From Brevibacillus brevis (GTDB taxonomy: Bacteria; Bacillota; Bacilli; Brevibacillales; Brevibacillaceae), in the NCBI RefSeq assembly GCF_022026395.1, contig NZ_CP041767.1, positions 360,001 to 424,000 on the forward strand: a stretch of DNA of 64,000 nucleotides. The letters are read 5' to 3'. A program made the position numbers and the translations under genes. The notes beneath the pieces are model-generated. The model saw only the letters and a program-made list of their open reading frames with translations, was not told the DNA's origin and did no database searches. Of this stretch, positions 11,666 to 45,905 are shown piece after piece. Numbering within the stretch: position 1 is the stretch's first letter; every line of letters begins with the position of its first letter.

Positions 11666-13180
11666 ATGATGTGGGAGCGCTTACGCGATAAACGACTGGC
11701 AGATAAAATCGTGACGGCTGAGGTAGCAGCAGGATGGATTGAGGATGGCATGACGATCGGGTTAAGTGGTTTCACGCGTGCTGGTGATGCCAAAGTCGTG
11801 CCGCTCGCATTGGCTGAGTTGGCGAAAAAAGAGAACAAGCCTTTTGGCGTAAACGTATATACAGGAGCATCACTCGGCTCCGATGTAGATGCCGTTATGG
11901 CGGAAGCGGGGATCATCAACAAGCGATTGCCTTTTCAAGCAGATCCGGTTATGCGCAAAAAAATCAACGATGGTAGCATGATGTTCGTTGACCAGCATTT
12001 GTCGCATACAGCGGAAGCAATTCGTCAGGGAGCGATTGACGCAATCGATTACGCGATTGTGGAAGCGGTTGCAATTACAGAAGAGGGTATGATCATTCCG
12101 GCTACGTCCGTGGGGAACTCCAATATTTTCGTGGAAAATGCCAAGCATGTCATCATTGAGTTGAATATGGCTCAATCGGTGGAATTGGAAGGCATTCATG
12201 ATATTTATACACCCGCAAAACAAGGAGAGCGTGAACCGATTCCGCTCACGTCTGTGGATCAGCGCATAGGCACAGCAGGGATCCCGGTCGATCCGAATAA
12301 AGTAAAAGGGATTGTCCTGACGAATCAGTTGGATTCTCCGTCGACAATTGTGGAGCCGGACGAAGAAACGGCGCAGATTGCGGCACATCTGATCGAGTTT
12401 TTGCGTCAGGAGGTAAAAGAGGGGCGCTTGCCGAACAATCTCGCGCCATTGCAATCAGGAATCGGATCGGTAGCGAATGCGGTTTTCAACGGATTTTTGG
12501 ATTCGGAATTCACGGATCTGACAGTCTTCTCGGAAGTGTTGCAGGATGCGGTGTTTGATTTGCTTGATGCAGGTAAAATTTCGTTTGCCTCAGGCTGTTC
12601 GATCACGCTGACGGCTGACAAGATGAAGCATGTCACCGAAAATTTTGCCCAATACCGTGACAAGCTGCTGTTGCGTCCGCAAGAAATCACGAACCATCCG
12701 GAGCTGATTCGCCGCCTCGGTCTGATTGCGATCAATACAGCGATTGAAGCGGACATCTACGGCAACGTCAACTCGACCAACGTGTCGGGTACACGAATGA
12801 TGAACGGCATCGGCGGCTCTGGTGATTTTGCTCGTAACGCACGTCTGGGCATCTTCGTAACCAAGTCGATTGCCAAAGGTGGAAACATTTCGAGCATCGT
12901 TCCGTTTGCCTCCCATGTGGATCATACCGAGCACGATGTCGATATTATCGTCACTGAGCAAGGCTTGGCTGACTTGAGAGGCTTGGCTCCGCGTCAAAGA
13001 GCCATCAAAATTATCGAGAATTGTGCGCATCCGATGTACCGCGATCAATTGATGGCATACTATGAGGAAGCACTCACACGTGGCGGGCACACCCCGCATG
13101 TACTGGAAAAGGCATTCTCCTGGCATGTACGTTACGCGCAGGAAGGCACGATGCTTGCGAAAAAGCCAGCGTTGGTTTAG
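11666..13180 (+). CDS. Acetyl-CoA hydrolase / succinyl-CoA:acetate CoA-transferase family
   Basis: 504 residues, full length for the AarC/Cat1/ScpC family. The enzyme moves CoA between acyl donors (for example succinyl-CoA and acetate) through a glutamyl-CoA intermediate; the candidate active-site Glu is in TVFSEVLQD. The C-terminal signature GGSGDFARNA, then VPFASHVDHTEHDVD and VTEQGLADLRG, is characteristic. GGGAGG precedes two adjacent ATGs (11666 and 11669); the first is used here. It is likely controlled by the LytTR regulator upstream and ends at a hairpin. The role is presumably acetate re-activation or short-chain acid metabolism. Acyl specificity cannot be read from the sequence. Confidence 0.88.
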   Translation: MMWERLRDKRLADKIVTAEVAAGWIEDGMTIGLSGFTRAGDAKVVPLALAELAKKENKPFGVNVYTGASLGSDVDAVMAEAGIINKRLPFQADPVMRKKINDGSMMFVDQHLSHTAEAIRQGAIDAIDYAIVEAVAITEEGMIIPATSVGNSNIFVENAKHVIIELNMAQSVELEGIHDIYTPAKQGEREPIPLTSVDQRIGTAGIPVDPNKVKGIVLTNQLDSPSTIVEPDEETAQIAAHLIEFLRQEVKEGRLPNNLAPLQSGIGSVANAVFNGFLDSEFTDLTVFSEVLQDAVFDLLDAGKISFASGCSITLTADKMKHVTENFAQYRDKLLLRPQEITNHPELIRRLGLIAINTAIEADIYGNVNSTNVSGTRMMNGIGGSGDFARNARLGIFVTKSIAKGGNISSIVPFASHVDHTEHDVDIIVTEQGLADLRGLAPRQRAIKIIENCAHPMYRDQLMAYYEEALTRGGHTPHVLEKAFSWHVRYAQEGTMLAKKPALV

Positions 13181-13202
13181 TCGATGGAATGATGAAAAAA
13201 GT

Positions 13203-13239
13203 AAACCCGCTCGGGCGTTAAAGCCTTGGCGGGTTTTTC
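13203..13239. terminator. Terminator between convergent CoA-transferase and MFS genes
   Basis: AAACCCGC and GCGGGTTTTT pair around a loop of 18 bases. T-run on the plus strand; the A-rich flank gives some function on the minus strand. Confidence 0.75.
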
Positions 13240-13265
13240 TCGTCTCCAATGCAATGTTTACGTTT

Positions 13266-14432
13266 TTACGCTTGCAAGCTTTCCTGCCTTTTTTCCTGAG
13301 CAAACGAAGCCCATGCAAAGCCAAAGCCGACGAGGACGAGCAGACCGCCGACCCAGCTGATGTGAGCAATACCTACATGGTCTACGATCACCCCACCGAG
13401 ACCTGCACCTAGCGCCAGTCCAAGCTGAAAAACCGAGGTGTTCATGCTGAGGGCCACCTGCGAAGAGTGAGGAGACAGCGTGATCAAATAATACTGCTGG
13501 GCTGGAACGGTGGTTTGCACGGCAGCGACCCAGAACATAACGGTGATGATTGCCCCCATGAACAGTTGCGAAGACAGCGGCAGGATCAGCAGGATGACTG
13601 CGTGAAGAAGCAAGCTGACATACAGCGTAGGGCGAATCCCCCTTTTGTCGGTGGAGACGCCTCCGATCCGCGAACCAGCCACACTAGCGAGGCCTGCCAA
13701 GAAAAGCGTGGTGCTTACCCAAGCAGTCGTCATGGCGGAAGTGCTCTGTAGAAGCGGAGTAATGTAGGTATAGACGGTGGAATACCCTGTGACAAAGAAC
13801 AAAGAGATAAATAGCGCATGAATCACCCGTTTGTTGCGGAGTGCGGCCAACTGTTTGCGTAGCGGGACAGCCTCTTCCCCCTGCTGCTTCGGCAAATAGG
13901 CCAAGATAGCGAAGAAGGGAACGAGCGTCAGGACGGCAATGAGCGCGAAAACAGGGCGCCATCCCCAGATGTCTCCCAGCATGGTGCCAAGTGGAACCCC
14001 AAGCACGAGCGAGAGGCTGAAGCCCATGAGGATGATCGCGATGGAGCTGCCTTTTTTCTCTGGGGAGGCCATATTGGCTGCTTGCGAGAGAGCTACCACG
14101 GTGTAGATGCCTCCACAAAGCCCCAGCAGAATGCGGGATACCATCAACAGCGAGAAGCTCGGGCTTATGGATGCGAGCAGGTTTGCGGCTATAAATGAAA
14201 ACAGCGTCCAAAGGATGAGCTTTTTGCGTTCTACTCCGGCGGTGAGCGCGATCAAGACCGGAGCTCCAAAGGCAAAGGCAAGGGAAAAGGCGGTCACTAA
14301 CTGACCAGCGAGAGAGAGGGAGACATGGGTGTCATCTGCGATCATGCCGATGATTCCGGTTACGATTGATTCAGCTGTGCCAATCATGAATTCTCCCAAG
14401 GCCAGTAATAGGATTAAAAATTTTTTAGACAA
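13266..14432 (-). CDS. MFS drug/sugar efflux transporter (DHA1, AraJ/NepI type)
   Basis: 388 residues with 12 predicted membrane helices. The start MSKKFLILLLALGEFMIGTAES and the helix-2/4 pattern (LAGQLVTAFSLAFAFGAPV, LLMVSRILLGLCGG) are those of the DHA1 proton-driven efflux group. The start codon is TTG 14432 with GAGGAG ten bases upstream; no ATG is better placed. It is divergent from a Lrp/AsnC regulator 157 bases away, an arrangement that usually means the regulator controls the exporter. The substrate is unknown (amino acid, nucleoside or drug). Confidence 0.82.
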   Translation of the reverse strand: MSKKFLILLLALGEFMIGTAESIVTGIIGMIADDTHVSLSLAGQLVTAFSLAFAFGAPVLIALTAGVERKKLILWTLFSFIAANLLASISPSFSLLMVSRILLGLCGGIYTVVALSQAANMASPEKKGSSIAIILMGFSLSLVLGVPLGTMLGDIWGWRPVFALIAVLTLVPFFAILAYLPKQQGEEAVPLRKQLAALRNKRVIHALFISLFFVTGYSTVYTYITPLLQSTSAMTTAWVSTTLFLAGLASVAGSRIGGVSTDKRGIRPTLYVSLLLHAVILLILPLSSQLFMGAIITVMFWVAAVQTTVPAQQYYLITLSPHSSQVALSMNTSVFQLGLALGAGLGGVIVDHVGIAHISWVGGLLVLVGFGFAWASFAQEKRQESLQA

Positions 14433-14589
14433 GGTGGTTCACTCCTCGAGCTAACAAAATTGATGTAGTGACATTTTACGAAACGATTTCTATAATTTAC
14501 ATACATGAACCAAGGTGTTTATGATGAATGGCTTTCTATATACAAGTTATTTGGCAGGAAACGCTTATGGATTTGAAAGGATGATCTGC

Positions 14590-15030
14590 GTGGACCAAAT
14601 CGATTACAAAATCATGAGCTTGTTGCACGAAAATTCGCGGATACCATTCGCGGAGCTGGGGAGAATCATCGGGATGACGCAGCCTGCCGTGAAGGAGCGG
14701 GTCCGTCGTCTCGAGGAGCAGGGAATCATTACGGGCTACCACGCGTCGATCTCTCAGGAAAAACTCGGTAAGCACACGACTGCTTTTGTCATGTTCCGCA
14801 CCAAGCAATGTGCGGCGTTCATCGATTTCTGCAAGCAATCGCCGGAAGTGACAGACATGTACCGGATCAGTGGGGAGTATAACTACATGCTGAAAGTGGT
14901 AACAAGGTCGACGGAGGAATTGGTTGCCTTCTCGGAACGCACTGGGGATTTCGGCTTCTCCTATACATTGATCGTGCTAACGGCGCCGTTTGAACAAAAA
15001 GTGATGCTGGAGGAAGAGAAAATCTTCTGA
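14590..15030 (+). CDS. Lrp/AsnC family transcriptional regulator
   Basis: 146 residues counted from GTG 14590, which has AAAGGA eight bases upstream and yields the family-typical opening DQIDYKIMSLLHENSR. The HTH occupies about residues 1-55 (FAELGRIIGMTQPAVKERVRRLEEQGII); the rest is the RAM/AsnC effector fold with GEYNYMLKV in place of the usual GxxDxxL. It probably regulates the divergent MFS exporter in response to an amino acid or similar ligand. Earlier in-frame ATGs at 14521 and 14581 lack a properly spaced ribosome site. Confidence 0.88.
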   Translation: MDQIDYKIMSLLHENSRIPFAELGRIIGMTQPAVKERVRRLEEQGIITGYHASISQEKLGKHTTAFVMFRTKQCAAFIDFCKQSPEVTDMYRISGEYNYMLKVVTRSTEELVAFSERTGDFGFSYTLIVLTAPFEQKVMLEEEKIF

Positions 15031-32934: not shown

Positions 32935-32975
32935 CAAAGTCACAATCACGATCAAATAAGCAACAAAACACAATA

Positions 32976-33098
32976 CGGCCTAGTTCCGATATTCTCGGAA
33001 GCGGGGGAACCAATCTTTTGGGGTTAATCCTGAGTGATCAGGAGGGATGAGGAAATGTCTTCTCTGCCATCCTACCCGTCAGCTAACCTCGTCGGCCA
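32976..33098 (+). ncRNA. Cyclic-di-AMP riboswitch (ydaO/yuaA) upstream of opuA
   Basis: Conserved ydaO aptamer blocks are present in order: GGGGGAACC after a hairpin TTCCGA...TCGGAA, GGGGTTAATCC (33020-33030), GGAGGGATGAGG, a variable stem, then CCCGTCAGCTAACCTCGTCGG (33075-33095). Closing pairing is GGCC (32977-32980) with GGCC (33094-33097). The family binds two c-di-AMP molecules and normally turns expression off when the nucleotide is high. Downstream lies a strong terminator (33172-33240) and then the glycine-betaine importer genes, a typical target class. Confidence 0.93.
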
Positions 33099-33171
33099 AA
33101 GCAGGGAAGGTCATGAATGGATAAAGTCTAGGCATATAATGCGCAACAAGGGGATTCCTTGCGGGCGTGTG

Positions 33172-33240: not shown

Positions 33241-33505
33241 ATGGAAATACCGACGAGCAGCTTACGCCGATACAACGTGAAGGGAATGGTGTGGATCGCT
33301 GAGAGGCAGTCGGTACGACATAAACCGCTGACAATCGAAATCAGGAAGACAGAGTACAGGGAGTCCTGAAAATGGACGCCAGGTATTACGTAAGCCTGCG
33401 GATTTTCAACACGAGTAAACTCAAGCGTGCCTGCTTGGTTTTGCTGGAGTGTCGAAACTTCGCGGGCTTTTTACATTTACGAAAAAACGAAGGATGAGGG
33501 ATATC
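33241..33505 (+). other. opuA leader between terminator and first gene
   Basis: No gene is seen. This is the distal part of a leader of about 565 nt running from the promoter to opuAA. Short open frames across the aptamer and here lack ribosome sites and cut through RNA structure. Confidence 0.5.
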
Positions 33506-34732
33506 ATGTCCAAAATGAAAGTCCACCAACTCACAAAAGTGTTCGGCAAGCAGCCCGAACTGGCCTTGAAGCTGCTGGCGGAAGGACGGACAAAAGAACA
33601 AATTTACAAGCAAACTGGCCAGTCCATCGGTGTCAATCAGGTCAGCTTTGAAGTCGAGGAAGGTGAAATCTTTGTCATTATGGGCCTGTCAGGCAGCGGC
33701 AAGTCCACCTTAATCCGACTGTGTAATCGACTGATTGACCCAACGAGCGGAAGCATCGAGATCGATGGGGAAGAGATCGTGGACATGAAGGCAGCAGCTT
33801 TGCGTGAGGTGCGGAGGAAGAAGCTCGGGATGGTTTTTCAAAATTTCGCCCTGTTTCCGCAGCGGTCGGTACGAGAAAACGTGGAGTTTGGTTTGGAGAT
33901 TCAGCAAGTACCGCCAGGACTCCGGCAAGAAAGAGCACGGGAAGCACTTGCGCTCGTTGGATTAACCGAGTGGGAAAATGCGCACCCGGATCAATTGAGC
34001 GGAGGGATGCGCCAGCGGGTCGGTCTGGCGCGGGCGTTGGCTAATAATCCAGATATTCTCTTGATGGACGAAGCGTTCAGTGCACTGGACCCACTCATTC
34101 GAAAAGATATGCAGGATGAGCTGCTGGAGCTCCAGATGACGATGAAAAAGACGATCCTGTTCATTACACATGACTTGCATGAGGCGTTGCGACTGGGCGA
34201 TCGGATTGCCTTTATGAAAGACGGGCAGATCATTCAGATCGGCCGCCCGGAAGAAATTATGGCAGACCCAGCGGATGAATTCGTGCGGAAGTTCGTGGAG
34301 GATGCCGACCTGTCCAGGGTGCTCGTTGCTGAAAATGTGATGAAACGGGCAGAAGCAATCACGCCTGACAAAGGGGCCCGAGTGGCGCTGCAACTCATGA
34401 TGGATAATGGCGTGTCCAGCTTGTACGTCGTGGACAAAAAGCGCACACTGCTTGGCTTGATTACGGCGTATGACGTATCACTTGCGATTGGTACGGGAGA
34501 TTCGCTGGAGGCAATCATGAAAACCGACCTCCCTACCGTTTCGCCTGACGCACGTCTGCACAGCTTGTTCCCGATGATGGCAGACCTGCACGTCCCGATT
34601 GCGGTAGTGGGCGACCAGCAGCGATTATTGGGTGTCATCGTAAAAGGAGCGGTGCTAGGCGGGCTGGTAGGCAAAGTCAATGTACAAGAGCATCAGAGAG
34701 CAGAGGTGATGAGTGATGGACGTCGTGCCTAA
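33506..34732 (+). CDS. opuAA: Glycine betaine/proline ABC transporter ATPase with CBS domains
   Basis: 408 residues. The N-terminal extension (FGKQPELALKLLAEGRTKEQI) is specific to the OpuA/ProV group. ATPase motifs are GLSGSGKST, VFQNFALFPQRSV, LSGGMRQRVGLARAL, ILLMDEAFSALD and ITHDLHEA. Residues about 290-408 are a tandem CBS pair (VMKRAEAITPDKGARVALQLM... VSPDARLHSLFPMM). In other Firmicutes CBS domains of OpuA-type ATPases sense ionic strength or bind c-di-AMP. ATG 33506 follows GAGGGA. Its mRNA starts with a c-di-AMP riboswitch, so import of compatible solute may be blocked at both RNA and protein level. Confidence 0.93.
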   Translation: MSKMKVHQLTKVFGKQPELALKLLAEGRTKEQIYKQTGQSIGVNQVSFEVEEGEIFVIMGLSGSGKSTLIRLCNRLIDPTSGSIEIDGEEIVDMKAAALREVRRKKLGMVFQNFALFPQRSVRENVEFGLEIQQVPPGLRQERAREALALVGLTEWENAHPDQLSGGMRQRVGLARALANNPDILLMDEAFSALDPLIRKDMQDELLELQMTMKKTILFITHDLHEALRLGDRIAFMKDGQIIQIGRPEEIMADPADEFVRKFVEDADLSRVLVAENVMKRAEAITPDKGARVALQLMMDNGVSSLYVVDKKRTLLGLITAYDVSLAIGTGDSLEAIMKTDLPTVSPDARLHSLFPMMADLHVPIAVVGDQQRLLGVIVKGAVLGGLVGKVNVQEHQRAEVMSDGRRA

Positions 34733-35555
34733 GCTACCGATTGGCAGTTGGATGGAAGGGTTCGTGGAGGTGCTGGGCCACTACAAAGGGGTATTGTTTG
34801 ATCCGGTGGCTATCGTCATTTCCACGATGGTGACTTACTGTTCTACGGTTTTGGCAGAGATACCTTCGCTGATTCTCATCTTGTTGCTGGGGGCCGCTGC
34901 GTGGGTTTTTGCAGGGAGAGCGTCCATGGTCTTTACGGTTGTTGGACTTTCTCTCATCCACAACTTGGGGTACTGGGATGAAACGATGGAGACATTGGGA
35001 CTCGTCCTCACTGCTACCATGATTTCGATCGTCATCGGGATTCCGGTGGGCATTCTTTGCGCGAGACACGATACGTTTCGCAATCTGGTTACGCCAGTAC
35101 TGGATTTGATGCAGACGATGCCCGCGTTCGTTTATTTGATTCCCGCGATCTTTTTCTTCGGTTTGGGCGAGGTGCCGGGAGTTATTGCCTCCGTTATTTT
35201 TGCTTTGCCGCCAATCGTGCGTCTCACGAACTTAGGCATACGTCAGGTCCCAGCGGAAATGGAGGAAGCGGCGGACGCCTTTGGCGCAACTGGGTGGCAA
35301 AAGCTCGTGAAAGTACAACTGCCATACGCGAAATCGACGATCTTGGCGGGAGTCAATCAGTGCATCATGCTCGCCCTGTCGATGGTGGTCATAGCGGCTA
35401 TGATCGGGGCGAAAGGCTTGGGTGCAGACGTATATCGCGCCGTATCGCAAGTGGATATAGGAAGAGGATTCGAGGCGGGGCTATCCATCGTGATCATCGC
35501 TATCGTCTTGGATCGACTTACCCAACATGCAGGAAAAAAGGAGAGAAATACATGA
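34716..35555 (+). CDS. opuAB: Glycine betaine ABC transporter permease
   Basis: 279 residues with about seven helices and the ProW/OpuAB permease pattern: ALVLTATMISIVIGIPVG-type helix, LDLMQTMPAFVYLIPAIFFFGLG and the EAA loop EEAADAFGATGWQKLVKVQLPYA. Start ATG 34716 has GAGGTGAT upstream and overlaps the opuAA end by 17 bases. Unlike lactococcal OpuA, no substrate-binding domain is fused; a separate binding lipoprotein follows. It forms the membrane channel for betaine-type osmolytes. Confidence 0.93.
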   Translation: MDVVPKLPIGSWMEGFVEVLGHYKGVLFDPVAIVISTMVTYCSTVLAEIPSLILILLLGAAAWVFAGRASMVFTVVGLSLIHNLGYWDETMETLGLVLTATMISIVIGIPVGILCARHDTFRNLVTPVLDLMQTMPAFVYLIPAIFFFGLGEVPGVIASVIFALPPIVRLTNLGIRQVPAEMEEAADAFGATGWQKLVKVQLPYAKSTILAGVNQCIMLALSMVVIAAMIGAKGLGADVYRAVSQVDIGRGFEAGLSIVIIAIVLDRLTQHAGKKERNT

Positions 35556-36487
35556 TGAACAAAATGATTCCAGCTATATTGGCAGTCATGATGGGAGCGA
35601 CAGCTTGGCTCGCAGGATGCTCTAGTCAAAACACAAACACACAAATACCGACAGCAACGGTGGTCGGTCCGATTCCTTCTGAGACGTCGGACAACGCGCT
35701 AGGAGAAAAGCTCGACTACAAAATCATCGGAATCGACGCAGGAGCAGGCTCGATGGTAAAGACAGAGGAAGTCATGAACCTGTATGGCTTGGATAAATGG
35801 CAGCTTGTCGAAGGCTCAGATGCCGCTATGACAGCAGCTTTGATCAAGGCGTACGAAGCGAAGGAACCAATTATCATAACGGGCTGGACGCCGCACTGGA
35901 TGTTTAAAAAGATGGATTTGAAATACTTGGCGGACCCAAAGAACGGCTTTGGCGGAGCGGAACAAATCCATACCATCGTGCGCAAAGGGCTGAAAGAGGA
36001 TCAGCCTGCTGCCTATCAATTTCTGGATAAGTTCTGGTGGGAGCCAGCCGATATGGAGTCGGTCATGGTTCAAATGATTGACGGAAAAGATCCGGAAGTG
36101 GCCGCTGCGGAATGGATAAAAAACAATGAAGTCAAAGTAGCGAAATGGGTGGAGGGCATACAGCCTGTCCAAAAAGAGAAGCTGACTCTCGCTTATGTAG
36201 CATGGGATTCCGAGATTGCCAGCTCGCACGTCGTAGAGCATGTGCTTGAGCAGAAGCTGGGGTATGAAGTCGAGTTGAGTCAGGTGCAGACTGGACCGAT
36301 GTGGGCAGGTGTGGCCATTGGGGATGTAGATGGGATGGTTGCGGCGTGGCTGCCGTCTACAGATACGAGCTATTTGAAAAAATTCGGTGGGCAAATCGAG
36401 GATTTGGGTCCGAATCTCGACGGAACCAAAATCGGACTCGTGGTTCCTTCGTACATGAACATCTCGTCCATTGAGGATCTCCAATAA
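35552..36487 (+). CDS. opuAC: Glycine betaine-binding lipoprotein
   Basis: 311 residues. Lipoprotein signal with lipobox LAGC (Cys near residue 23). Mature protein is an OpuAC fold (PF04069) with repeated lobes; Trp-rich segments such as ITGWTPHWMFKKMDLKYL and VAAWLPSTDTSYLKKFG provide the aromatic cage for the quaternary ammonium group. ATG 35552 overlaps the opuAB stop as ATGA, after AAGGAGAG. The much longer upstream in-frame extension runs through opuAB and is not coding. Located outside the membrane, delivering betaine to OpuAB. Confidence 0.93.
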   Translation: MMNKMIPAILAVMMGATAWLAGCSSQNTNTQIPTATVVGPIPSETSDNALGEKLDYKIIGIDAGAGSMVKTEEVMNLYGLDKWQLVEGSDAAMTAALIKAYEAKEPIIITGWTPHWMFKKMDLKYLADPKNGFGGAEQIHTIVRKGLKEDQPAAYQFLDKFWWEPADMESVMVQMIDGKDPEVAAAEWIKNNEVKVAKWVEGIQPVQKEKLTLAYVAWDSEIASSHVVEHVLEQKLGYEVELSQVQTGPMWAGVAIGDVDGMVAAWLPSTDTSYLKKFGGQIEDLGPNLDGTKIGLVVPSYMNISSIEDLQ

Positions 36488-37537: not shown

Positions 37538-37566
37538 TTAACATCCGATTATGCCAGACGTATAAT
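37538..37566 (+). promoter_or_regulatory. Promoter of the kdp riboswitch transcript
   Basis: TTAACA (37538-37543), 17-base spacer, TATAAT (37561-37566). Predicted start near 37573, about 20 bases before the aptamer. Confidence 0.8.
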
Positions 37567-37593
37567 GAGATTCGTAACCAACAATTGCAAATA

Positions 37594-37717
37594 TGGCCAA
37601 ATCCCGAGGCACTCGGGAACGGAGGACCCAATCAGTAGGGGTTAATCCCACGAATGAATCGTGGGAGGGATGAGATACTCTTTCGCCATCCTACCCGTCA
37701 GCTAACTTCGTCGGCTA
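37594..37717 (+). ncRNA. Cyclic-di-AMP riboswitch (ydaO/yuaA) upstream of kdp
   Basis: Same block order as at 32976: a CCCGAGGC-ACTCGGG hairpin, GGAGGACCC, GGGGTTAATCC (37638-37648), GGAGGGATGAG, then CCATCCTACCCGTCAGCTAA (37686-37705) and CTTCGTCGGC. Closing stem TGGCC (37594-37598) with GGCTA (37713-37717). It precedes a K+ pump operon; ydaO riboswitches controlling potassium importers are well known. High c-di-AMP is expected to shut off kdp. Confidence 0.93.
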
Positions 37718-37735
37718 AAGCGAGGGAGGTCTAAA

Positions 37736-38184: not shown

Positions 38185-38292
38185 ATGGACGTGGTTTCCA
38201 TACTGCTCTTGGCGCTTTCATTCGGTGTATTTTTTGCACTCATCAAATTTTGTGACGCCGTAGTAAGAGAACAGGGAGGGAAAGAGAAATGA
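38185..38292 (+). CDS. 35-residue membrane protein preceding KdpF
   Basis: 35 residues with a single transmembrane helix (MDVVSILLLALSFGVFFALI) and a charged tail (KFCDAVVREQGGKEK). RBS AAGGAGGG at 38171 is nine bases before ATG 38185, and the stop overlaps the kdpF start as ATGA, so it is translated and coupled to kdpF. I do not know a characterised homologue. By position and topology it may be an additional small subunit or assembly/regulatory factor of the KdpFABC pump. Confidence 0.75.
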   Translation: MDVVSILLLALSFGVFFALIKFCDAVVREQGGKEK

Positions 38293-38366
38293 TCTGGTTG
38301 CTTTTGATTATGGCAGGGCTTGCGATGTACCTGTGCCACGCATTGATTTACCCGGAAAAATACTAG
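38289..38366 (+). CDS. kdpF: K+-transporting ATPase small subunit KdpF
   Basis: 25 residues, one transmembrane helix and the family ending ALIYPEKY, which matches the KdpF pattern (YL..AL..PEKF). It stabilises the KdpFABC complex at the lipid interface of KdpA. ATG 38289 overlaps the preceding stop codon. It is 61 bases before kdpA. Confidence 0.88.
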   Translation: MIWLLLIMAGLAMYLCHALIYPEKY

Positions 38367-38427: not shown

Positions 38428-40101
38428 GTGGACTTTATACAAATAGCGCTGGTTTTGGTGGTGCTTTTCGTGCTCGCCATACCGATGGGAAAATATTTGG
38501 CACGCTCCTTTTCGCTGGAGACGACCCGATTGGACCGTGTTTTTGGCGGGTTGGAAAAAGCGATATACAAGCTGTCTGGCATTCGCGTAGCAGATATGAC
38601 CTGGAAGCAGTACGCAATGGCTGTTCTGGTCAGCAACATTTCAATGGTGGCGATTGCGTATCTCTTGCTTCGTTTGCAAGGGATGTTACCTGGAAACCCG
38701 AGTGGAATTGCGGCGATGGAGCCGTTGCTTTCCTTTAACACAGCCGTCAGCTTTTTGACGAATACGAATCTTCAGCATTACAGCGGGGAGAGCGGATTGT
38801 CGTATCTATCGCAGATGCTGGTCATTATTTACCTGATGTTTACGACACCAGCGACAGGGATCGCGGTCGTAATGGCTTTCATGCGCGGGCTGACAGGGCA
38901 GCGTAGCATCGGTAACTACTACGTTGACCTGGTGCGTGCTCATACACGGGTGTTGATTCCACTGGCAATTGTTGTGACACTGCTCTTGGTGTCCCAAGGC
39001 GTGCCGCAGACGATGGAGCCGACAGCGACAGCAACAACGATTAGCGGAACGGAGCAACAAATCGCTCGCGGTCCCGTTGCTTCACTGGTATCGATTAAGC
39101 ATTTGGGAACAAACGGGGGAGGATTCTTCGGAGTAAACTCTTCGCATCCGTTTGAAAACCCGACACCGCTAACAAACGTGATCGAAATTTTGTCGATGTT
39201 CTTGATCCCGGCGGCACTGCCATTCGCGTTCGGCTTCATGGCGAAGAGCCGCAAGCAAGGCTGGGTTATTTTTGGAGCGATGTTCGTGATGTTCCTGGCG
39301 TTTCTGATTACGGCGTATGCCAATGAAGGAAACGGCAACCCGGCGCTGGAACGGGCTGGCCTGTCACAAGAAATGGGCAGCATGGAAGGAAAAGAAGTCC
39401 GTTTTGGTATCGCACAAAGCGCCTTGTTCACCGCCGTGACAACAGCGGCAACGACAGGAACTGTGAACAACATGCATGATACATTGACACCACTTGGCGG
39501 CTTGGTTCCGCTCGGTGAAATGATGCTCAACTGCGTATTCGGCGGAGATGGCGTCGGAACGATTAACATTTTGATGTATGCGATTTTGGCTGTATTCTTG
39601 GCGGGCTTGATGGTAGGGCGTACGCCTGAATTCCTTGGACGCAAGATCGAAGGGAAAGAGATGAAGCTGATCGCCATCGCGATTCTCGTTCATCCCCTGA
39701 TTATTTTGGCGCCAACCGCTATTGCATTGGCAACTGAAATGGGATCGTCCGCAGTGTCGAACCCAGGCTTCCATGGTATTTCACAAGTGTTGTACGAGTA
39801 CACTTCTTCGGCAGCCAACAACGGTTCCGGTTTTGAAGGATTGGGCGACAACACGCCATTCTGGAACATTTCTACCGGACTCGTCATGCTGTTCGGTCGA
39901 TACGTCTCGATCATTACGATGCTGGCGGTAGCAGGCTCCTTGCTCGCAAAAACGCCGGTACCGGAAACGATGGGTACGCTGCGCACAGACAATAGTGTAT
40001 TCACGGTGATTTTGATTGCGACTGTGGTGATCGTAGGCGCACTGACATTCCTGCCTGTGCTTGCTCTTGGCCCAATCGCCGAGTGGCTCACAATCCGATG
40101 A
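38428..40101 (+). CDS. kdpA: K+-transporting ATPase subunit KdpA
   Basis: 557 residues with about ten helices, the channel-like subunit of the high-affinity K+ pump. Selectivity-filter type loops are visible: FNTAVSFLTNTNLQHYSGE, KHLGTNGGGFFGVNSSHPFENP, TTGTVNNMHDTLTPLGG and TSSAANNGSGFEGL. The start codon is GTG 38428 after TAGGAGG. Complete length for the family. It takes K+ from outside and passes it by an internal tunnel to KdpB. Confidence 0.97.
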   Translation: MDFIQIALVLVVLFVLAIPMGKYLARSFSLETTRLDRVFGGLEKAIYKLSGIRVADMTWKQYAMAVLVSNISMVAIAYLLLRLQGMLPGNPSGIAAMEPLLSFNTAVSFLTNTNLQHYSGESGLSYLSQMLVIIYLMFTTPATGIAVVMAFMRGLTGQRSIGNYYVDLVRAHTRVLIPLAIVVTLLLVSQGVPQTMEPTATATTISGTEQQIARGPVASLVSIKHLGTNGGGFFGVNSSHPFENPTPLTNVIEILSMFLIPAALPFAFGFMAKSRKQGWVIFGAMFVMFLAFLITAYANEGNGNPALERAGLSQEMGSMEGKEVRFGIAQSALFTAVTTAATTGTVNNMHDTLTPLGGLVPLGEMMLNCVFGGDGVGTINILMYAILAVFLAGLMVGRTPEFLGRKIEGKEMKLIAIAILVHPLIILAPTAIALATEMGSSAVSNPGFHGISQVLYEYTSSAANNGSGFEGLGDNTPFWNISTGLVMLFGRYVSIITMLAVAGSLLAKTPVPETMGTLRTDNSVFTVILIATVVIVGALTFLPVLALGPIAEWLTIR

Positions 40102-40176: not shown

Positions 40177-42216
40177 ATGAGTAGAACGCGCACGGTTGCG
40201 CTTCCTAAAGATTTGTACCAGCGGGCCTTTGTCGAGTCTTTCAAAAAACTGGACCCGCGTGTGATGATGAAAAATCCAGTCATGTTCGTGGTAGAGATCG
40301 GGTTCTTCATTACGCTTCTCTTGACGTTTGTGCCCAATTTGTTTGGGGGAGCTTCGGACCCGTTCTACAACGGTGTCGTCAGCTTTATCCTGTTCGTGAC
40401 GATTCTGTTCGCCAACTTCGCAGAAGCCTTGGCAGAAGGTCGCGGCAAAGCACAGGCAGAGAGCTTGAAAAAAACGAAGCAGGACACGCAAGCAAAAAAA
40501 GTGGGGAAAGATGGTCGCATTCAAGTCGTCAGTTCCACAGAACTGCGAAAAGGCGATCTGGTGATCGTGGAAGCAGGCGAGCTGATTCCATCCGACGGGG
40601 AAATCGTCGAGGGTGTCGCCTCTGTGGACGAATCAGCAATTACGGGTGAATCTGCTCCGGTCATTAAAGAAGCAGGTGGCGATTTCAGCTCTGTCACGGG
40701 AGGCACACGTGTAGTCAGTGACCGGATCCGTGTCCGTGTGACGACTGATCCCGGCGAATCGTTTTTGGACCGCATGATTTCGTTGGTAGAGGGCGCGAAG
40801 AGACAGAAGACTCCGAATGAAATCGCGTTGAATACGCTATTGGTCAGCTTGACGTTGATTTTCCTGATTGTCTGCACGACCTTGCTGCCTATTGCCAACT
40901 ATGTAAATGCAGCCATTCCGGTTGCGACACTGATTGCTTTGCTCGTTTGCTTGATTCCGACTACGATTGGCGGACTCTTGTCAGCGATTGGGATTGCGGG
41001 TATGGACCGGGTCACGCAGTTTAACGTCATCGCTATGTCTGGTAAAGCCGTAGAGGCATCCGGTGACATCAACACCATTATTTTGGATAAAACGGGAACG
41101 ATCACGCATGGTAACCGGATGGCTGCCGAGTTTGTCACCGTAGGCAACAGCAAAAGCACGGAATTGAACCGAGTAGCTGCACAAAGCTCGGTCCATGACG
41201 AAACACCGGAAGGACGCTCTGTTGTAGAGCTGGCGAAAAAACAAGGTCTGGCACCCGCTGAACTGGAATTGCCTGGTTCCGAAGGCGTGGAGTTCCGCGC
41301 TGAAACAAGAATGAGCGGGACGAATTTGGCAAGCGGCGTCCTCATCCGCAAAGGGGCCGTCGACGCCATCAAAAAATACGTGGTAGAGCAAGGGGGCAAC
41401 ATCCCTGCTGATTTGGATGAAAAAGCAAACCGGATTGCAACGGCGGGCGGCACGCCATTGGCTGTAGCAGAAGGCAATGCGATTCTCGGGTTGATTTACC
41501 TGAAAGATACCGTAAAGCCAGGGATGCGCGAACGCTTTGAAGAGCTGCGCCGCATGGGTATTCGTACGGTCATGTGCACGGGAGATAACCCGCTGACAGC
41601 CGCGACGATTGCCCGCGAAGCAGGTGTGGACGATTTCGTAGCGGAAGCCAAGCCGGAAGACAAGATTGCGCTGATCCGCAAAGAACAAGCGGCAGGCAAG
41701 CTCGTCGCCATGACGGGTGACGGTACGAATGACGCGCCAGCTCTCGCACAAGCCGATGTCGGTTTGGCGATGAATACGGGTACGGTAGCGGCGAAAGAAG
41801 CAGCGAACATGGTCGATTTGGATTCTGACCCGACCAAAATTATCGAGGTCGTTGCGATTGGCAAGCAGCTTTTGATGACGCGCGGTGCATTGACGACGTT
41901 CAGTATCGCCAATGACGTAGCGAAATACTTCGCGATCATTCCTGCGATGTTCATGCTGGCGATCCCACAAATGAGTGCGCTCAACATCATGGGTCTGGCT
42001 ACACCGGAAAGTGCGATTTTGTCCGCGTTGATCTTCAATGCGATTATTATCCCGATCCTGATTCCGTTGGCGATGAAAGGTGTGAAATACACACCGATGA
42101 GCGCGACGAAGCTACTCAGCCGCAATCTGGTGATCTATGGCTTGGGGGGAATTATCGTCCCGTTCGTGGGCATCAAGCTGATAGACTTGATTTTGGTAGG
42201 ATTGAATCTGGTGTAA
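40177..42216 (+). CDS. kdpB: K+-transporting P-type ATPase subunit KdpB
   Basis: 679 residues. P-type motifs are TGES (actuator; ITGESAPV, with a Ser that is the inhibitory phosphorylation site in E. coli KdpB), the [15 protein letters not shown] transport helix, [10 protein letters not shown] (phosphorylation), KGAVDAI in the nucleotide domain and [18 protein letters not shown]. It hydrolyses ATP to drive K+ import through KdpA. RBS GCAAAGGAG precedes ATG 40177; 75 bases separate it from kdpA, with no other gene between. Confidence 0.97.
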
Positions 42217-42251: not shown

Positions 42252-42815
42252 ATGATATGGAAAAATTTGCGTCTCAGCCTCGTTTTGCTGCTGATTTGCG
42301 GCGTTGCCTACCCGCTGGCGATGACAGGGGTTGCACAGGTTGTCATGCCCGCACAAGCAAGTGGCAGTCTCATCACCGATGCGAGCGGCAAGGTAGTCGG
42401 CTCCGAGCTGATTGGGCAGACCTTCACCGATCCGAAGTACTTCTGGGGACGCATTTCTTCTATTGATAACAATGCGTCAGGCTCTGGCTCGAACAACTAC
42501 GCGCCATCTAACCCGGCCCTGATCGAACGTACACAAAAAGATATCGCCGCATTTCTGGCAGCGAATCCTGGCGTGAAGCAGGAAGACATCCCGGCTGATT
42601 TGTTGACGAACTCCGCTTCCGGTCTGGATCCGCATATCTCGCCAAAAGCTGCTCAGATACAAGTGGAGCGTGTAGCCAAGGTGCGCAATCTCGAACCAGT
42701 ACAACTACAGGCTCTGATTGAAGCGAATACAGAGGGAAGAAGCTTGGGGGTATTCGGAGAGCCGCGTGTCAATGTAGTCAAGCTGAATATAGCTTTGGAT
42801 GAATTGGATAAGTAA
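42252..42815 (+). CDS. kdpC: K+-transporting ATPase subunit KdpC
   Basis: 187 residues: one N-terminal transmembrane helix (LVLLLICGVAYPLAMTGVAQ) and an outside domain with the conserved blocks GSELIGQTF, YFWGRISS, SGSNNYAPSNPAL, SASGLDPHISPKAA and EPRVNVVKLNIAL. KdpC caps the complex on the outer face and raises K+ affinity. ATG 42252 follows AGGTGA. It completes kdpFABC. Confidence 0.96.
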   Translation: MIWKNLRLSLVLLLICGVAYPLAMTGVAQVVMPAQASGSLITDASGKVVGSELIGQTFTDPKYFWGRISSIDNNASGSGSNNYAPSNPALIERTQKDIAAFLAANPGVKQEDIPADLLTNSASGLDPHISPKAAQIQVERVAKVRNLEPVQLQALIEANTEGRSLGVFGEPRVNVVKLNIALDELDK

Positions 42816-42836
42816 AGAATGAAGGAGGGCTGCGAG

Positions 42837-45167
42837 ATGGTAGAGCAGTTTCGGCGAAAGTCCCCGGAGGAAATCTTGCAGTCCATCTCCAGAATGCACC
42901 GGGGCAGGCTGAAAATCATTCTGGGGGCAGTCAGTGGTTCAGGTAAAACCTATCACCTGCTAATGGAAGGGCAGTCGCTTAAGAAAAAAGGGATTGATGT
43001 GGTCGTAGCTGGCTCAGGCGAGGCCACTCATCCCAAGCTGGCGCAAAAGCGGGAGGGCTTGGAGCAAATCCAGCCAATCATCTGGTATTCCCTCGGGGAA
43101 GCGAGACATGATCTGGACGTTGCAGCCATTATCGAGCGTGATCCGGAAGTGGTTCTCGTAGACGGTTTGGCTCATCGCAATCGTCCAGATGCCCAGCGTG
43201 TAACCCGGCTCGACGATGTTCAGTATTTGTTGAATCACAATATTAGTGTGATTGCGACGGTCAACATTTACGAATTGGCGGGGATGAAAGAAATGGCGGA
43301 GCGACTGACGAAGGCAGAAGTGCGTATCGACCAGTGTGTACCTGAGGATACGCTTGCCATGGCTGACGAGGTGAAATTGCTCGACGTCACGCCAGAAGCC
43401 ATTCTGAAAAGGCTGCAAGAAGATGATCGCAACCCGACTCGAACCAAGCATCCGTTGTTTCGCAGAGACAATCTGCATATGCTGCGAGAACTCGCTCTTC
43501 GGTTCGTAGCTACAGGCGTAAACGAGGATTTGGAGGATTATCGAGAGAAGCACGGTATGGTAGGGGCTTCCGGAGCCACAGAGAAGGTGTTGGTTTCTGC
43601 CCAGTATCATTGGAACGGGTCGATATTGGTTCGGCGAGGACAACAGGTTGCCAAGCGGCTCGGCGGAGAGCTCTTGGTCGTCTGTTTTCTCCCTTTATCC
43701 AAGAAACTGACGAAGGAAGAAGCGACTTTTAAGAGATCCATCGGAAAGCTCGTGGACAAAGTCGGAGGTACCTTTGAAGAGCAGATGCTTGCACATGAAA
43801 AGGGCGTAGCAAACGAGCTCGTCGCTTATGCGATGGAGAATAATGTGACCCGAATCGTCATGGGGCAGTCCAAGCGTACGCGCTGGGAAGAGATATGGTA
43901 TGGCTCCATCGTCCATAAGATTCTTCGGCAAACGAAAAATATTGATATCCTAATCGTAGCGGACCGTTCTGAGCGGGACGGTGAGCGCGTTATGCCGACC
44001 AAGCGTGAACAAGCGGTAACGCCCAATCCGTACCGCCGACTCTCTGATGAGGAGATGCAGCAGAAAATCGGGAAAATCAAGCGCGGTACGCTAAAAGTAT
44101 ATGTGGGAGCCGCACCTGGTGTCGGCAAGACGTACACGATGCTCCGAGAAGGCAACGAGCTCGCCGAAAATGGCATCGACGTGGTGATTGGGCTTTTAGA
44201 AACGCATGGACGAAAAGAAACCATTGAGCAGGTAGGGGGACTTCCTCTTATCCCGCGCAAGCGTATTCCGTACAAAAACGTGACGTTGGAAGAAATGGAT
44301 ACGGACGAAATCATCCGGCGAAATCCGGAGGTCGTACTGGTGGATGAGCTGGCACATACGAATGTGCCGGGGAGTGCCTATGAGAAGCGATACCACGATG
44401 TCGAGAAGATTTTGGCTGCGGGTATTTCCGTCATATCCACGATGAACATTCAGCACCTGGAGAGCTTAAACGACAGCGTCGAACAAATCACGGGAATCCG
44501 CGTGCGAGAGACGGTACCAGATCATATTTTGCATCAGGCAGATGAGGTCGAGCTGATCGATATTTCACCCAAAGCACTGCGTCAGCGGATGCGGGAGGGC
44601 AATATTTACGCGATGGAAAAGGTAGAGCAGTCGCTGACCAACTTTTTCAAAACAGGGAATTTGATCGCGCTACGGGAGTTGGCCTTGCGTGAAGTGGCGG
44701 ACGACGTCGACGAACGCTTGGAGGCGTGGGAGCGACGAACGCTTCGCGGGCCTTGGCGGCAGCAGGAAGTCATTTTTGTCTGTGTGAATTTGCGCGCAGA
44801 CAGTGAACGATTGATTCGCCGAGGATTCCGAATTGCCTATCGGCTGAAGGCGTCCTGGCATGTAGCTTACGTGCAGGATCATTCGTCGCTGACAGAAGAG
44901 GAAGAGACGCAGTTGGCGAAGCTGAAGGCACTAACAGAGCGGCTCGGAGGTCGCTTCGAACAATACGAAGCCCCTTCTCGGCGCAAGGTTTTCACCAAGC
45001 TGGTTTGGCATATGAACGAAAAAGGAACGACGCAGGTCGTCATCGGGCAGTCGGCGCGGACCCGCTGGAAGGAAATTCTCGAGGGTTCGGTCATTCAGCG
45101 ATTATTGAGGGAGGTCCGACACATGGATGTGCTGGTCGTGGCCGATCACGCATCCGAAATGATGTGA
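42837..45167 (+). CDS. Tandem-duplicated KdpD sensor module lacking the histidine kinase
   Basis: 776 residues made of two KdpD N-terminal modules in a row. Each has the KdpD P-loop domain followed by a universal-stress (USP) domain. Module 1: Walker A GAVSGSGKT (30-38) and VDGLAHRNRPD; it looks divergent. Module 2: Walker A GAAPGVGKT (424-432) and VDELAHTNVPG, close to canonical KdpD. Both USP parts end with the ATP-loop-like GQSKRTRWEEI/GQSARTRWKEI. No transmembrane 4-TM block, HisKA or HATPase follows, and no kdpE is in the window. ATG 42837 follows AAGGAGGG. It is part of the riboswitch-controlled kdp operon and may sense K+, ATP or c-di-AMP and act directly on the pump or on a distant kinase. 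Confidence 0.9.
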   Translation: MVEQFRRKSPEEILQSISRMHRGRLKIILGAVSGSGKTYHLLMEGQSLKKKGIDVVVAGSGEATHPKLAQKREGLEQIQPIIWYSLGEARHDLDVAAIIERDPEVVLVDGLAHRNRPDAQRVTRLDDVQYLLNHNISVIATVNIYELAGMKEMAERLTKAEVRIDQCVPEDTLAMADEVKLLDVTPEAILKRLQEDDRNPTRTKHPLFRRDNLHMLRELALRFVATGVNEDLEDYREKHGMVGASGATEKVLVSAQYHWNGSILVRRGQQVAKRLGGELLVVCFLPLSKKLTKEEATFKRSIGKLVDKVGGTFEEQMLAHEKGVANELVAYAMENNVTRIVMGQSKRTRWEEIWYGSIVHKILRQTKNIDILIVADRSERDGERVMPTKREQAVTPNPYRRLSDEEMQQKIGKIKRGTLKVYVGAAPGVGKTYTMLREGNELAENGIDVVIGLLETHGRKETIEQVGGLPLIPRKRIPYKNVTLEEMDTDEIIRRNPEVVLVDELAHTNVPGSAYEKRYHDVEKILAAGISVISTMNIQHLESLNDSVEQITGIRVRETVPDHILHQADEVELIDISPKALRQRMREGNIYAMEKVEQSLTNFFKTGNLIALRELALREVADDVDERLEAWERRTLRGPWRQQEVIFVCVNLRADSERLIRRGFRIAYRLKASWHVAYVQDHSSLTEEEETQLAKLKALTERLGGRFEQYEAPSRRKVFTKLVWHMNEKGTTQVVIGQSARTRWKEILEGSVIQRLLREVRHMDVLVVADHASEMM

Positions 45168-45179
45168 GGGAGGGTAATG

Positions 45180-45905
45180 ATGGGCACAGAAAAAGAAGGG
45201 CAATGGGACCAAAGCGTGGCAGACGCCTATAGCCGTTTGGAGTGCCTGATACTAGAGCCAACTACGGAGGCAGATTTGTTTTCCAGGCTGATACGGGTCT
45301 ACCTGGAGGAAGAAGAAGTGCGCATACGGCAAAAGCTAAAGCGCAAATCCTCGCAGCGAATCTCTCGCGTCATGCATGAACGGGTGGGTGAGTTTTTGTC
45401 TGGGCAGTTGACCGGGCTTTCGTTTCAAGTGATTGACGGTCTCTTGTTTATAAAGAGGCAAGAGCAGCTAGTCGGGGCACTCAAATGCATCCCAGATCTC
45501 GGCAGCTACGATACTCCGTCCTGGAATGCAACACTTGCCCGTTTTGCCAAGCAGTATCAGAAGCGGTTCCAGCTGGCGCCAGAGAAGCTGCTGTTCTTTG
45601 TCTGCTCGCTCGCCAAAAGCTTGGATGCAGCTCATGCCAAGGCGTTGACCGGAATTGATGTGTGGTGTGGTGCGGCATTAACGACTCCCGCTTATCGGGA
45701 TGCGCTGCAAACGTATGTCAGCAAATGTGTGGAGGTCATGGACGCTCTCCCGCAGCCTGTGCACCAAGTGTATTTTTTAAGTGCAGATGTCCATCCGAAT
45801 GCGCTTGCTTGCCAATTGCTGCGCGGGGAAAAAGCATCCATGCCAGATCGTTGGTTGCGACCGTCCGTCGGTGATCTCATCCAATTACTGCAAGCGAAGC
45901 TGTGA
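45180..45905 (+). CDS. Unknown protein at the end of the kdp operon
   Basis: 241 residues with no signal peptide or membrane helix; not recognised. The N-terminal third is acidic and basic helices (EEEEVRIRQKLKRKSSQRISRVMHERVGEFL, coiled-coil-like), the middle is beta-rich (LSFQVIDGLLFIKRQEQLVGALKCIPDLG) and the end is alpha/beta. GGGAGGG precedes two adjacent ATGs (45177, 45180), 10-13 bases after the KdpD-like gene, so it belongs to the kdp transcript. A regulatory partner of the duplicated KdpD protein is a reasonable guess only. Confidence 0.75.
   Translation: MGTEKEGQWDQSVADAYSRLECLILEPTTEADLFSRLIRVYLEEEEVRIRQKLKRKSSQRISRVMHERVGEFLSGQLTGLSFQVIDGLLFIKRQEQLVGALKCIPDLGSYDTPSWNATLARFAKQYQKRFQLAPEKLLFFVCSLAKSLDAAHAKALTGIDVWCGAALTTPAYRDALQTYVSKCVEVMDALPQPVHQVYFLSADVHPNALACQLLRGEKASMPDRWLRPSVGDLIQLLQAKL

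Follow-up and report, generated by a model that had tools for sequence, protein, structure and literature searches.

The kdpD gene in a 64-kb stretch of the Brevibacillus brevis genome (assembly GCF_022026395.1, contig NZ_CP041767.1, positions 360,001–424,000 of the forward strand; in the following called the window, to which all positions refer) encodes two KdpD modules in one chain, each consisting of a P-loop domain and a Usp domain, and it is devoid of histidine kinase domains. We see about an even chance that this tandem KdpD is a covalently fused, asymmetric form of the short KdpD/Usp serine kinases, in which module 1 acts as a pseudokinase and sensor, likely of cyclic di-AMP (c-di-AMP), and module 2 phosphorylates KdpB. 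The proposal builds on the anatomy of the protein, on a genome in which neither a KdpD histidine kinase nor KdpE was found, on the residues that are conserved and lost in the two modules, on the purifying selection acting on them, and on the distribution of tandem proteins.

Anatomy of a tandem KdpD without histidine kinase domains

The gene starts with the ATG at 42837, which is preceded by a good ribosome-binding site (AAGGAGGG), and its open reading frame (ORF) comprises 776 codons and a stop codon. An alternative ATG at 42819, the choice of the ORF finder, has no such ribosome site. A Pfam search of the product yielded two KdpD domains (PF02702, 518 bits in total) and two Usp domains (PF00582) in the order KdpD P-loop, Usp, KdpD P-loop, Usp, and no transmembrane, HisKA or HATPase family was detected at E-values up to 1. 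The Walker A motifs are located at residues 30–38 (GAVSGSGKT, module 1) and 424–432 (GAAPGVGKT, module 2). The two modules and the Walker A positions agree with an earlier note made from the letters of this DNA, which had described two complete modules and nothing else. The gene and its domains are as follows:

42837–45167, + strand: tandem histidine-kinase-less kdpD, 776 amino acids (Pfam, NCBIfam, ribosome site)
42903–43547, + strand: module 1 P-loop, predicted ATP-binding pseudokinase (Walker A 42924–42950; Walker B D109–G110 within 43146–43181)
43578–43976, + strand: module 1 Usp (conserved beta1-alpha1 loop VSAQYHWNGS at 43593–43622)
43977–44045, + strand: linker between the modules, residues 381–403 (partly disordered in the structural model, residues 379–397 having a predicted local distance difference test score (pLDDT) below 50)
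44085–44729, + strand: module 2 P-loop, predicted active serine kinase (Walker A 44106–44132; Walker B D503–E504 within 44328–44363)
44763–45152, + strand: module 2 Usp (degenerate loop VCVNLRADSE at 44778–44807)

The chain thus contains two modules instead of the single module of about 370 amino acids that defines a short KdpD/Usp protein. The NCBIfam model NF038185 (KdpD_non_kinase) matches each module over nearly all of its 373 positions. The whole protein passes the cut-off of 550 bits with a score of 776, while module 1 alone (307 bits) and module 2 alone (482 bits) do not. Module 1, whose identity the earlier note had wanted to see verified by a profile, is clearly a KdpD module, with 203 bits against PF02702 in addition to the NF038185 match.

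The genome is a single contig of 6.16 Mb, and it was searched for a separate kinase and response regulator. No other PF02702 match exceeded the cut-off of 26.1 bits (one partial match reached 24.7 bits), and no DUF4118 match and hence no KdpD histidine kinase was found. The best match to E. coli KdpE had a score of 152 bits (41% identical); the best matches in two sister genomes without kdpE scored 152 and 160 bits, compared with 214–250 bits in three genomes in which kdpE is present. The absence of kdpE, which the note had reported for the window, therefore extends to any KdpE-grade regulator in the genome, and the two parts of a KdpDE two-component system, a histidine kinase KdpD and KdpE, were both not found. 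Three diadenylate cyclase domains are encoded in the genome.

Conserved and lost residues in the two modules

Two types of tandem KdpD were distinguished. In type A the first module is diverged; it was found in family f1, which includes Brevibacillus, and in five other family codes, and 26 proteins were used. In type B both modules have intact kinase residues including the Walker B Glu; it was found in three family codes, in 18 fused and two split loci (L083–L097, L099, L101, L103, L133 and L134; L098 belongs to type A). The 26 type A proteins had been fetched with the family profile and without module 1 motifs. In addition, a named collection was scanned with the type A module 1, and the best 80 of 556 candidate loci were taken. 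These had been fetched by the module 1 motifs [AVT]QY[HY]WNGS and PEV[VL]L[VT]DxLA, and therefore the conservation of Q256, Y257, N260 and D109 in this set is biased. The 80 loci contain near copies, and some are the same genomes as numbered loci. The alignment of 80 proteins used below comprises 79 of these loci and the window; L212, which has a broken frame, was dropped.

The N-terminal domain of KdpD is an atypical serine kinase for Ser162 of KdpB (Silberberg et al., 2024; PMC11018627). In E. coli, phosphorylation of KdpB requires Walker A, Asp109 and Glu110 of Walker B, and the adenine pair Trp39/Arg190 (PMC11018627). Serine phosphorylation of KdpB by the P-loop of a short KdpD shuts the pump (PMC11018627). 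The residue numbering was confirmed on the E. coli KdpD record. In module 2 of the aligned type A proteins, K431, T432, D503, E504 and R584 are present in 80 of 80, the window included, and the position of the E. coli Trp39 is occupied by Tyr (Y433) in 77 and by Phe in three. Module 2 thus has Walker A, the Asp-Glu of Walker B and an aromatic/Arg adenine pair with Tyr in place of Trp, and by homology to the tested family it is predicted to be an active serine kinase for KdpB.

Module 1 retains K37, T38, D109 and R192 in all 80 proteins (a count that is biased for D109, as stated above), and it has lost the Walker B Glu110 in 76 of them. Residue 110 is Gly in the window; in the 26 profile-fetched proteins it is Gly in 17, Asp in four, Glu in two, and Ser, Gln and His in one each. 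The motifs ETHGR, QHLES and RETVPD, which are present in module 2 of the window protein, are missing from its module 1, and the Gln of the module 2 motif is replaced by an invariant Tyr145 in the module 1s of type A. In the eight of 45 Brevibacillus pairs with a synonymous rate (dS) below 1.3, the ratio of nonsynonymous to synonymous rates (dN/dS) of the P-loop was 0.029–0.086 for module 1 and 0.007–0.085 for module 2. The former values indicated that module 1 is not decaying and is under strong purifying selection. Module 1 therefore reads as an ATP-binding pseudokinase and not as a ruin, and its presumed loss of catalysis hinges on one residue that is essential in E. coli. The earlier note had taken the diverged Walker A motif as a sign that one copy became regulatory. 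A regulatory role fits the evidence, but the Walker A divergence is not the telling change, because the ATP-binding residues of module 1 are intact; the exchange of the Walker B Glu for Gly is.

The Usp halves exhibited the opposite pattern. In a comparison of 23 type A proteins (three type A rows of family f48 were dropped), P-loop identity was lower in module 1 than in module 2 in 252 of 253 pairs, and Usp identity was higher in module 1 in 188 of 253. In S. aureus KdpD, the beta1-alpha1 loop of Usp makes contacts with the nucleotide (PMC8214093). In the 26 profile-fetched proteins, on which the claim about the loop rests instead of on the 80 motif-fetched ones, its mean entropy was 0.58 bits in module 1 and 1.24 bits in module 2, and Tyr257, Asn260 and Gly261 of module 1 were invariant. 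Based on D. geothermalis KdpD (see below) and the riboswitch context, c-di-AMP is probably the ligand of the module 1 Usp.

A structure of the tandem was predicted with AlphaFold on an alignment of 63 sequences (the window and 62 loci; 17 of 79 tandem proteins were left out). The model has a mean pLDDT of 75.3 and a predicted template modelling score (pTM) of 0.41; a single-sequence prediction had been discarded (pLDDT 35). The module 2 P-loop of the model matches P. syringae KdpD (2r8r, Z 29.4), and its module 2 Usp matches that of S. aureus (7ji4, Z 15.6, 124 residues). Both Usps jointly superpose on the tandem universal stress protein (USP) 3loq (Z 20.6, 247 residues, root mean square deviation 3.4) in this model of pTM 0.41, and they also match UspE and Rv2623. 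The joint superposition places the Usps roughly as in a USP pair, and the model suggests the hypothesis that they pair within the chain like a tandem USP.

Distribution, riboswitches and loci of tandem KdpD proteins

In an order-wide search tandem KdpD proteins were found in 27 of 39 genomes. All 28 full loci were fused, and one further match was a fragment of 155 amino acids. In the class Bacilli, 192 of 398 genomes had an NF038185 match; among the matches listed were one-module and full-length forms, and tandems in several further families. Since the class search gave the best matches, no total of tandem loci is stated; sixty loci were extracted as stretches and dissected. The statement of the earlier note that short KdpD forms have one module is thus too narrow, as two-module forms exist in several families of Bacilli. 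The best 80 of the 556 named loci belong to Brevibacillus, Paenibacillus, Cohnella, Neobacillus, Peribacillus, Gottfriedia, Bacillus methanolicus and others, and in 79 of them both modules are in one frame. Of 299 genomes sampled across the phylum, six carry a type A module 1 (above 600 bits), one of them outside the class; all other listed matches reached 351 bits at most.

In a quick tree of 107 modules, from which L113 (a near copy of L109) and the degenerate N-terminal domain of the L081 kinase had been left out, modules 1 and 2 of types A and B formed four clades with supports of 99–100. The module 1s of type A were a single clade across six family codes with a stem branch of 0.71. When the two type A clades were constrained to stay together, the resulting tree surpassed that of the free search by 20 log units (p 0.78), which indicated that the free search was not optimal, and a topology that joins the module 1s of types A and B in one clade was not rejected either (p 0.38). 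As regards one versus two duplications behind the two types, the tree tests thus reject neither of the two groupings.

Several loci deserve mention. In L091 and L092, which are type B, the two modules are encoded by neighbouring separate genes, and 16 of 17 type B genomes searched have a separate DUF4118 frame of 510–662 amino acids. In L081 a full-length-type KdpD kinase (12375–14699) lies next to the tandem KdpD; its P-loop is degenerate and its Walker B sequence VDRLEARN lacks the Glu, as though the tandem protein had taken over its serine-kinase role. A near-identical kdp locus (807-amino-acid ORF, similar scores) occurs in L199, L203, L210 and L113, i.e., in records labelled Paenibacillus, uncultured Brevibacillus (a metagenome-assembled genome) and Siminovitchia terrae and in a genome of the genus of the window, which reflects either transfer or mislabelled or contaminated assemblies. 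In L105/L154 (Bacillus methanolicus PB1), kdpA and kdpB were only partly matched beside an intact tandem kdpD, and a second kdpC piece is nearby.

The operon in the window has the order riboswitch, 35-amino-acid ORF, kdpF, kdpA, kdpB, kdpC, kdpD, all on the + strand:

37538–37566, + strand: sigma-70-like promoter TTAACA-17-TATAAT (11 of 12 consensus positions; a consensus match only)
37585–37731, + strand: c-di-AMP (ydaO) riboswitch aptamer of the kdp operon, 5′ of kdpF (RF00379, 74.2 bits; gathering threshold 38)
38185–38292, + strand: 35-amino-acid ORF with a hydrophobic N-terminal half, 5′ of kdpF (ORF reading)
38289–38366, + strand: kdpF, 25 amino acids (named from position and sequence only)
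38428–40101, + strand: kdpA (PF03814, 806 bits)
40177–42216, + strand: kdpB (Pfam), with the codon of the TGES serine S159, the presumed phosphorylation target, at 40651–40653
42252–42815, + strand: kdpC (PF02669, 261 bits)
45177–45905, + strand: 242-amino-acid ORF with no assigned family, 9 bases 3′ of kdpD (ORF and loci of relatives)

The riboswitch that the earlier note had placed ahead of kdp is well recognized by RF00379. Eight promoter-like consensus matches were found across the whole region scanned, no excess over a shuffle mean of 8.0. A terminator directly 3′ of the aptamer is not claimed: the fold energy was close to that of shuffles (z 0.34), and the terminator scan lists none there. 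Matches to the 35-amino-acid ORF and to kdpF were each found 5′ of kdpA in at least 60 of the 129 loci examined (E-value up to 0.1). The TGESA motif of KdpB is kept in 131 of 134 ORFs scoring above 700 bits; one has TGEIA and two have no such motif. The 242-amino-acid ORF is kdp-linked, as it adjoins the 3′ end of kdpD in Brevibacillus loci, and a relative (29% identical) directly follows kdpC in another family (L104, 2751–3644). The best Pfam E-value across seven members scanned was not below 0.04, and the single NCBIfam match (E-value 0.18) was well below the family cut-off; the ORF may or may not be part of the kdp system. A second c-di-AMP riboswitch in the window (32967–33113, 78 bits) lies 5′ of a three-gene ABC transporter (33449–36487), which, judged by its ORFs, resembles an OpuA-type importer of glycine betaine.

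Among relatives, RF00379 was present in all 10 loci searched in family f1, four of eight of family f4, one of four further type A loci and all 10 one-module loci searched; L104, whose stretch has no kdpA 5′ of the tandem, and L105, whose aptamer lies elsewhere, were not counted among the type A riboswitch loci. Of six type B loci, five fused ones had no riboswitch and one split locus had one. For the 80 named loci an aptamer model built in this work was used, and three rows of at most 30 bits were left out of the tally. The gene kdpA was inside the stretch in 75 loci; 63 of these 75 have an aptamer within 1.8 kb 5′ of kdpA, and 25 have two or three. Multiple aptamers were seen in L107, L110, L076, L078 and many Paenibacillus and Cohnella loci, three of them once, and the second aptamer of L203 and L210 had only about 33 bits. 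L184 combines a tandem kdpD with two aptamers and a weak match to kdpC. An aptamer together with a local KdpD-type kinase and/or KdpE (phmmer) was found in 11 of the 75 loci (L151, L195, L198, L199, L203, L205–L208, L210 and L215); 11 further loci have a kinase and/or KdpE and no aptamer, and one has neither. Riboswitch and KdpDE are stated to be mutually exclusive in PMC6488665, and the 11 loci with both are at odds with this.

Proposed mechanism, alternatives and known systems

The kinase activity of the tandem, its target and ligand, ATP binding, Usp pairing and signalling across modules are what we infer from the results above. As the riboswitch family and the case of B. thuringiensis suggest, transcription of kdpFABC-D would be set by the c-di-AMP riboswitch, and the KdpD protein would act after translation. 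Module 2 would bind ATP and transfer phosphate to the TGES serine S159 of KdpB, which would shut the pump once K+ is sufficient. Module 1 would still bind ATP and, having no catalytic glutamate, serve as pseudokinase partner. Usp1 with its conserved nucleotide loop would be the likely sensor, most likely of c-di-AMP, and the two Usps would pair in the chain in tandem-USP style; because they would be paired within one chain, a ligand on Usp1 could alter the state of module 2. The suggestion of the earlier note that the sensor half may survive as a regulator acting directly on the pump is in line with this evidence and with the serine-kinase role published for the P-loop (PMC11018627). A bolder version is put forward tentatively and with less confidence than the proposal itself: the pseudokinase half may read both c-di-AMP, by its Usp, and ATP, by its dead P-loop, and gate the KdpB-phosphorylating half, so that, together with the riboswitch, one second messenger would control synthesis and activity of the pump, and fused KdpD pairs that divide the roles differently (types A and B) may have arisen in Bacilli.

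Several observations weigh against the proposed asymmetric kinase. Glu110 is kept in four of 80 module 1s, and Asp occupies the position in four of 26, so that not every module 1 is plainly dead. Type B keeps the Walker B Glu in both modules and has its conserved Usp loop in module 2 (0.27 bits, versus 1.33 bits in module 1), which shows that the role split of type A is not general. In 65 of 253 pairs, Usp identity of module 1 did not exceed that of module 2, and the means of 0.566 and 0.534 differ little; Usp1 had a lower dN/dS than Usp2 in only five of eight Brevibacillus pairs. The beta1-alpha1 loop was selected after the alignment had been viewed, and the largest excess variability of module 2 was found in 12-residue windows starting at 5–9 and 288–290, i.e., not in the loop, although in the same direction. 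The pTM of 0.41 leaves the domain placement uncertain, and the Usp of S. aureus is predominantly a monomer in solution (PMC8214093), so that Usp pairing is not a given. The tandem forms are known here from sequence and a model.

A further point of this kind is that the S. aureus c-di-AMP motif (A/G/C)XSXSX2N(Y/F) (PMC8214093) is absent from both Usps, as had been noted for its SxS part. Of five motif positions, two were matched in module 2 (C649 and Y678) and none in module 1; in an alignment to 7ji4, the S. aureus residues A242, S244, S246 and N249 correspond to C, N, R and S in module 2 and to S, Q, H and G in module 1. The motif was also missing from 14 of 14 sampled one-module KdpDs of Bacilli and from D. 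radiodurans KdpD, and it therefore does not make a fair test for KdpDs beyond the group to which it belongs. The short KdpD of D. geothermalis, which is likened here by its published response alone, is stimulated by c-di-AMP (PMC11018627); because of these proteins, the missing SxS does not rule out c-di-AMP as ligand.

Among the alternatives, it is conceivable, with distinctly lower probability than the asymmetric fused kinase, that module 2 is a c-di-AMP-driven serine kinase on its own and that module 1 is a docking or autoinhibitory part, whose Usp loop binds AMP, ATP or a protein. E. coli UspC binds the Usp domain of KdpD (PMC11018627), the S. aureus motif is missing from both Usps, and apart from the Walker B Glu module 1 has retained its ATP-site residues, all of which would suit such a part; however, the Usp loop of module 2 is degenerate, and a sensor there must do without it. 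It is unlikely that both modules are active serine kinases and that the duplication only raises dosage or avidity: type B modules and some type A module 1s do have the Walker B Glu (4/80; 2/26) or Asp (4/26), yet module 1 of the window protein has Gly at the catalytic position and is devoid of the three motifs named above.

Similarly improbable is that the protein directly regulates kdp transcription or serves another transporter. The locus L175 (Paenibacillus sp. H1-7, complete chromosome) has its tandem kdpD directly after two ydaO aptamers, and no kdpA, kdpB or kdpC was found in the 17-kb stretch, which would be in accord with such a role. However, Pfam finds no DNA-binding family in the protein and kdpA is in the stretch of 75 of the 80 named loci. 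In addition, the knockout of the short kdpD of B. thuringiensis left kdp transcription unaltered (PMC6488665), which argues against a transcriptional role of short kdpD. That module 1 is a functionless, decaying remnant of a recent duplication seems very improbable: it is more diverged than module 2 and has the long stem branch, but the clade covers six family codes, the Walker A Lys-Thr, Asp109 and Arg192 are invariant, and the P-loop dN/dS is low (0.029–0.086). Least of all is to be expected that a frameshift or assembly join hides a KdpD kinase, or that the operon is under the control of a separate KdpD kinase and KdpE. Such a pair does accompany tandem kdpD in other Bacilli, and in two of 12 family f1 genomes searched; the single-contig genome has no DUF4118 match and no KdpE-grade regulator, and a frameshift is dismissed because 27 of 39 genomes of the order share this fused frame.

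What is new is the fused asymmetric form and its spread, which covers several families of Bacilli and not one genome only; the kinase-less KdpD itself and its serine-kinase role have been published (PMC11018627). No description of a fused KdpD pair was found in the open-licence PMC papers searched, among which one endophyte genome paper has just the phrase 'KdpD-like non-kinase', and the searched passages of PMC11018627 contain no mention of duplicated or two-KdpD forms. The 2024 serine-kinase finding left unexplained how c-di-AMP at Usp activates the KdpD kinase. The type A tandems look like a natural separation of functions, one half bearing the kinase residues and the other the conserved Usp loop, while type B keeps catalytic residues in both, and they would allow the two roles to be tested separately on proteins free of membrane domains.

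The tandem KdpD resembles Deinococcus geothermalis DgKdpD (PMC11018627) in its P-loop and Usp domains, in the lack of transmembrane and histidine kinase domains and in the catalytic residues of module 2 (with Tyr for the E. coli Trp), but it has two modules per chain, no catalytic Glu in module 1 and role-specific conservation of its two Usps. KdpDs without histidine kinase domains occur mainly where KdpE is missing (PMC11018627). With the truncated KdpD of Bacillus thuringiensis (365 amino acids; PMC6488665) it shares a c-di-AMP riboswitch ahead of kdp, a kinase-less kdpD downstream and the absence of kdpE; that protein has only one module. NF038185 is likewise a single-module family, which covers nearly the full model length in both modules and whose cut-off neither of them reaches alone. 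Like full-length E. coli KdpD, the tandem has an N-terminal P-loop and Usp, but the four-transmembrane block and the GAF, DHp and CA domains are missing and no KdpE was found. With the tandem USPs (UspE, Rv2623 and A. fulgidus 3loq) it may have in common the pairing of two Usps in one chain, as the model suggests, but in the tandem KdpD each Usp carries a KdpD P-loop domain.

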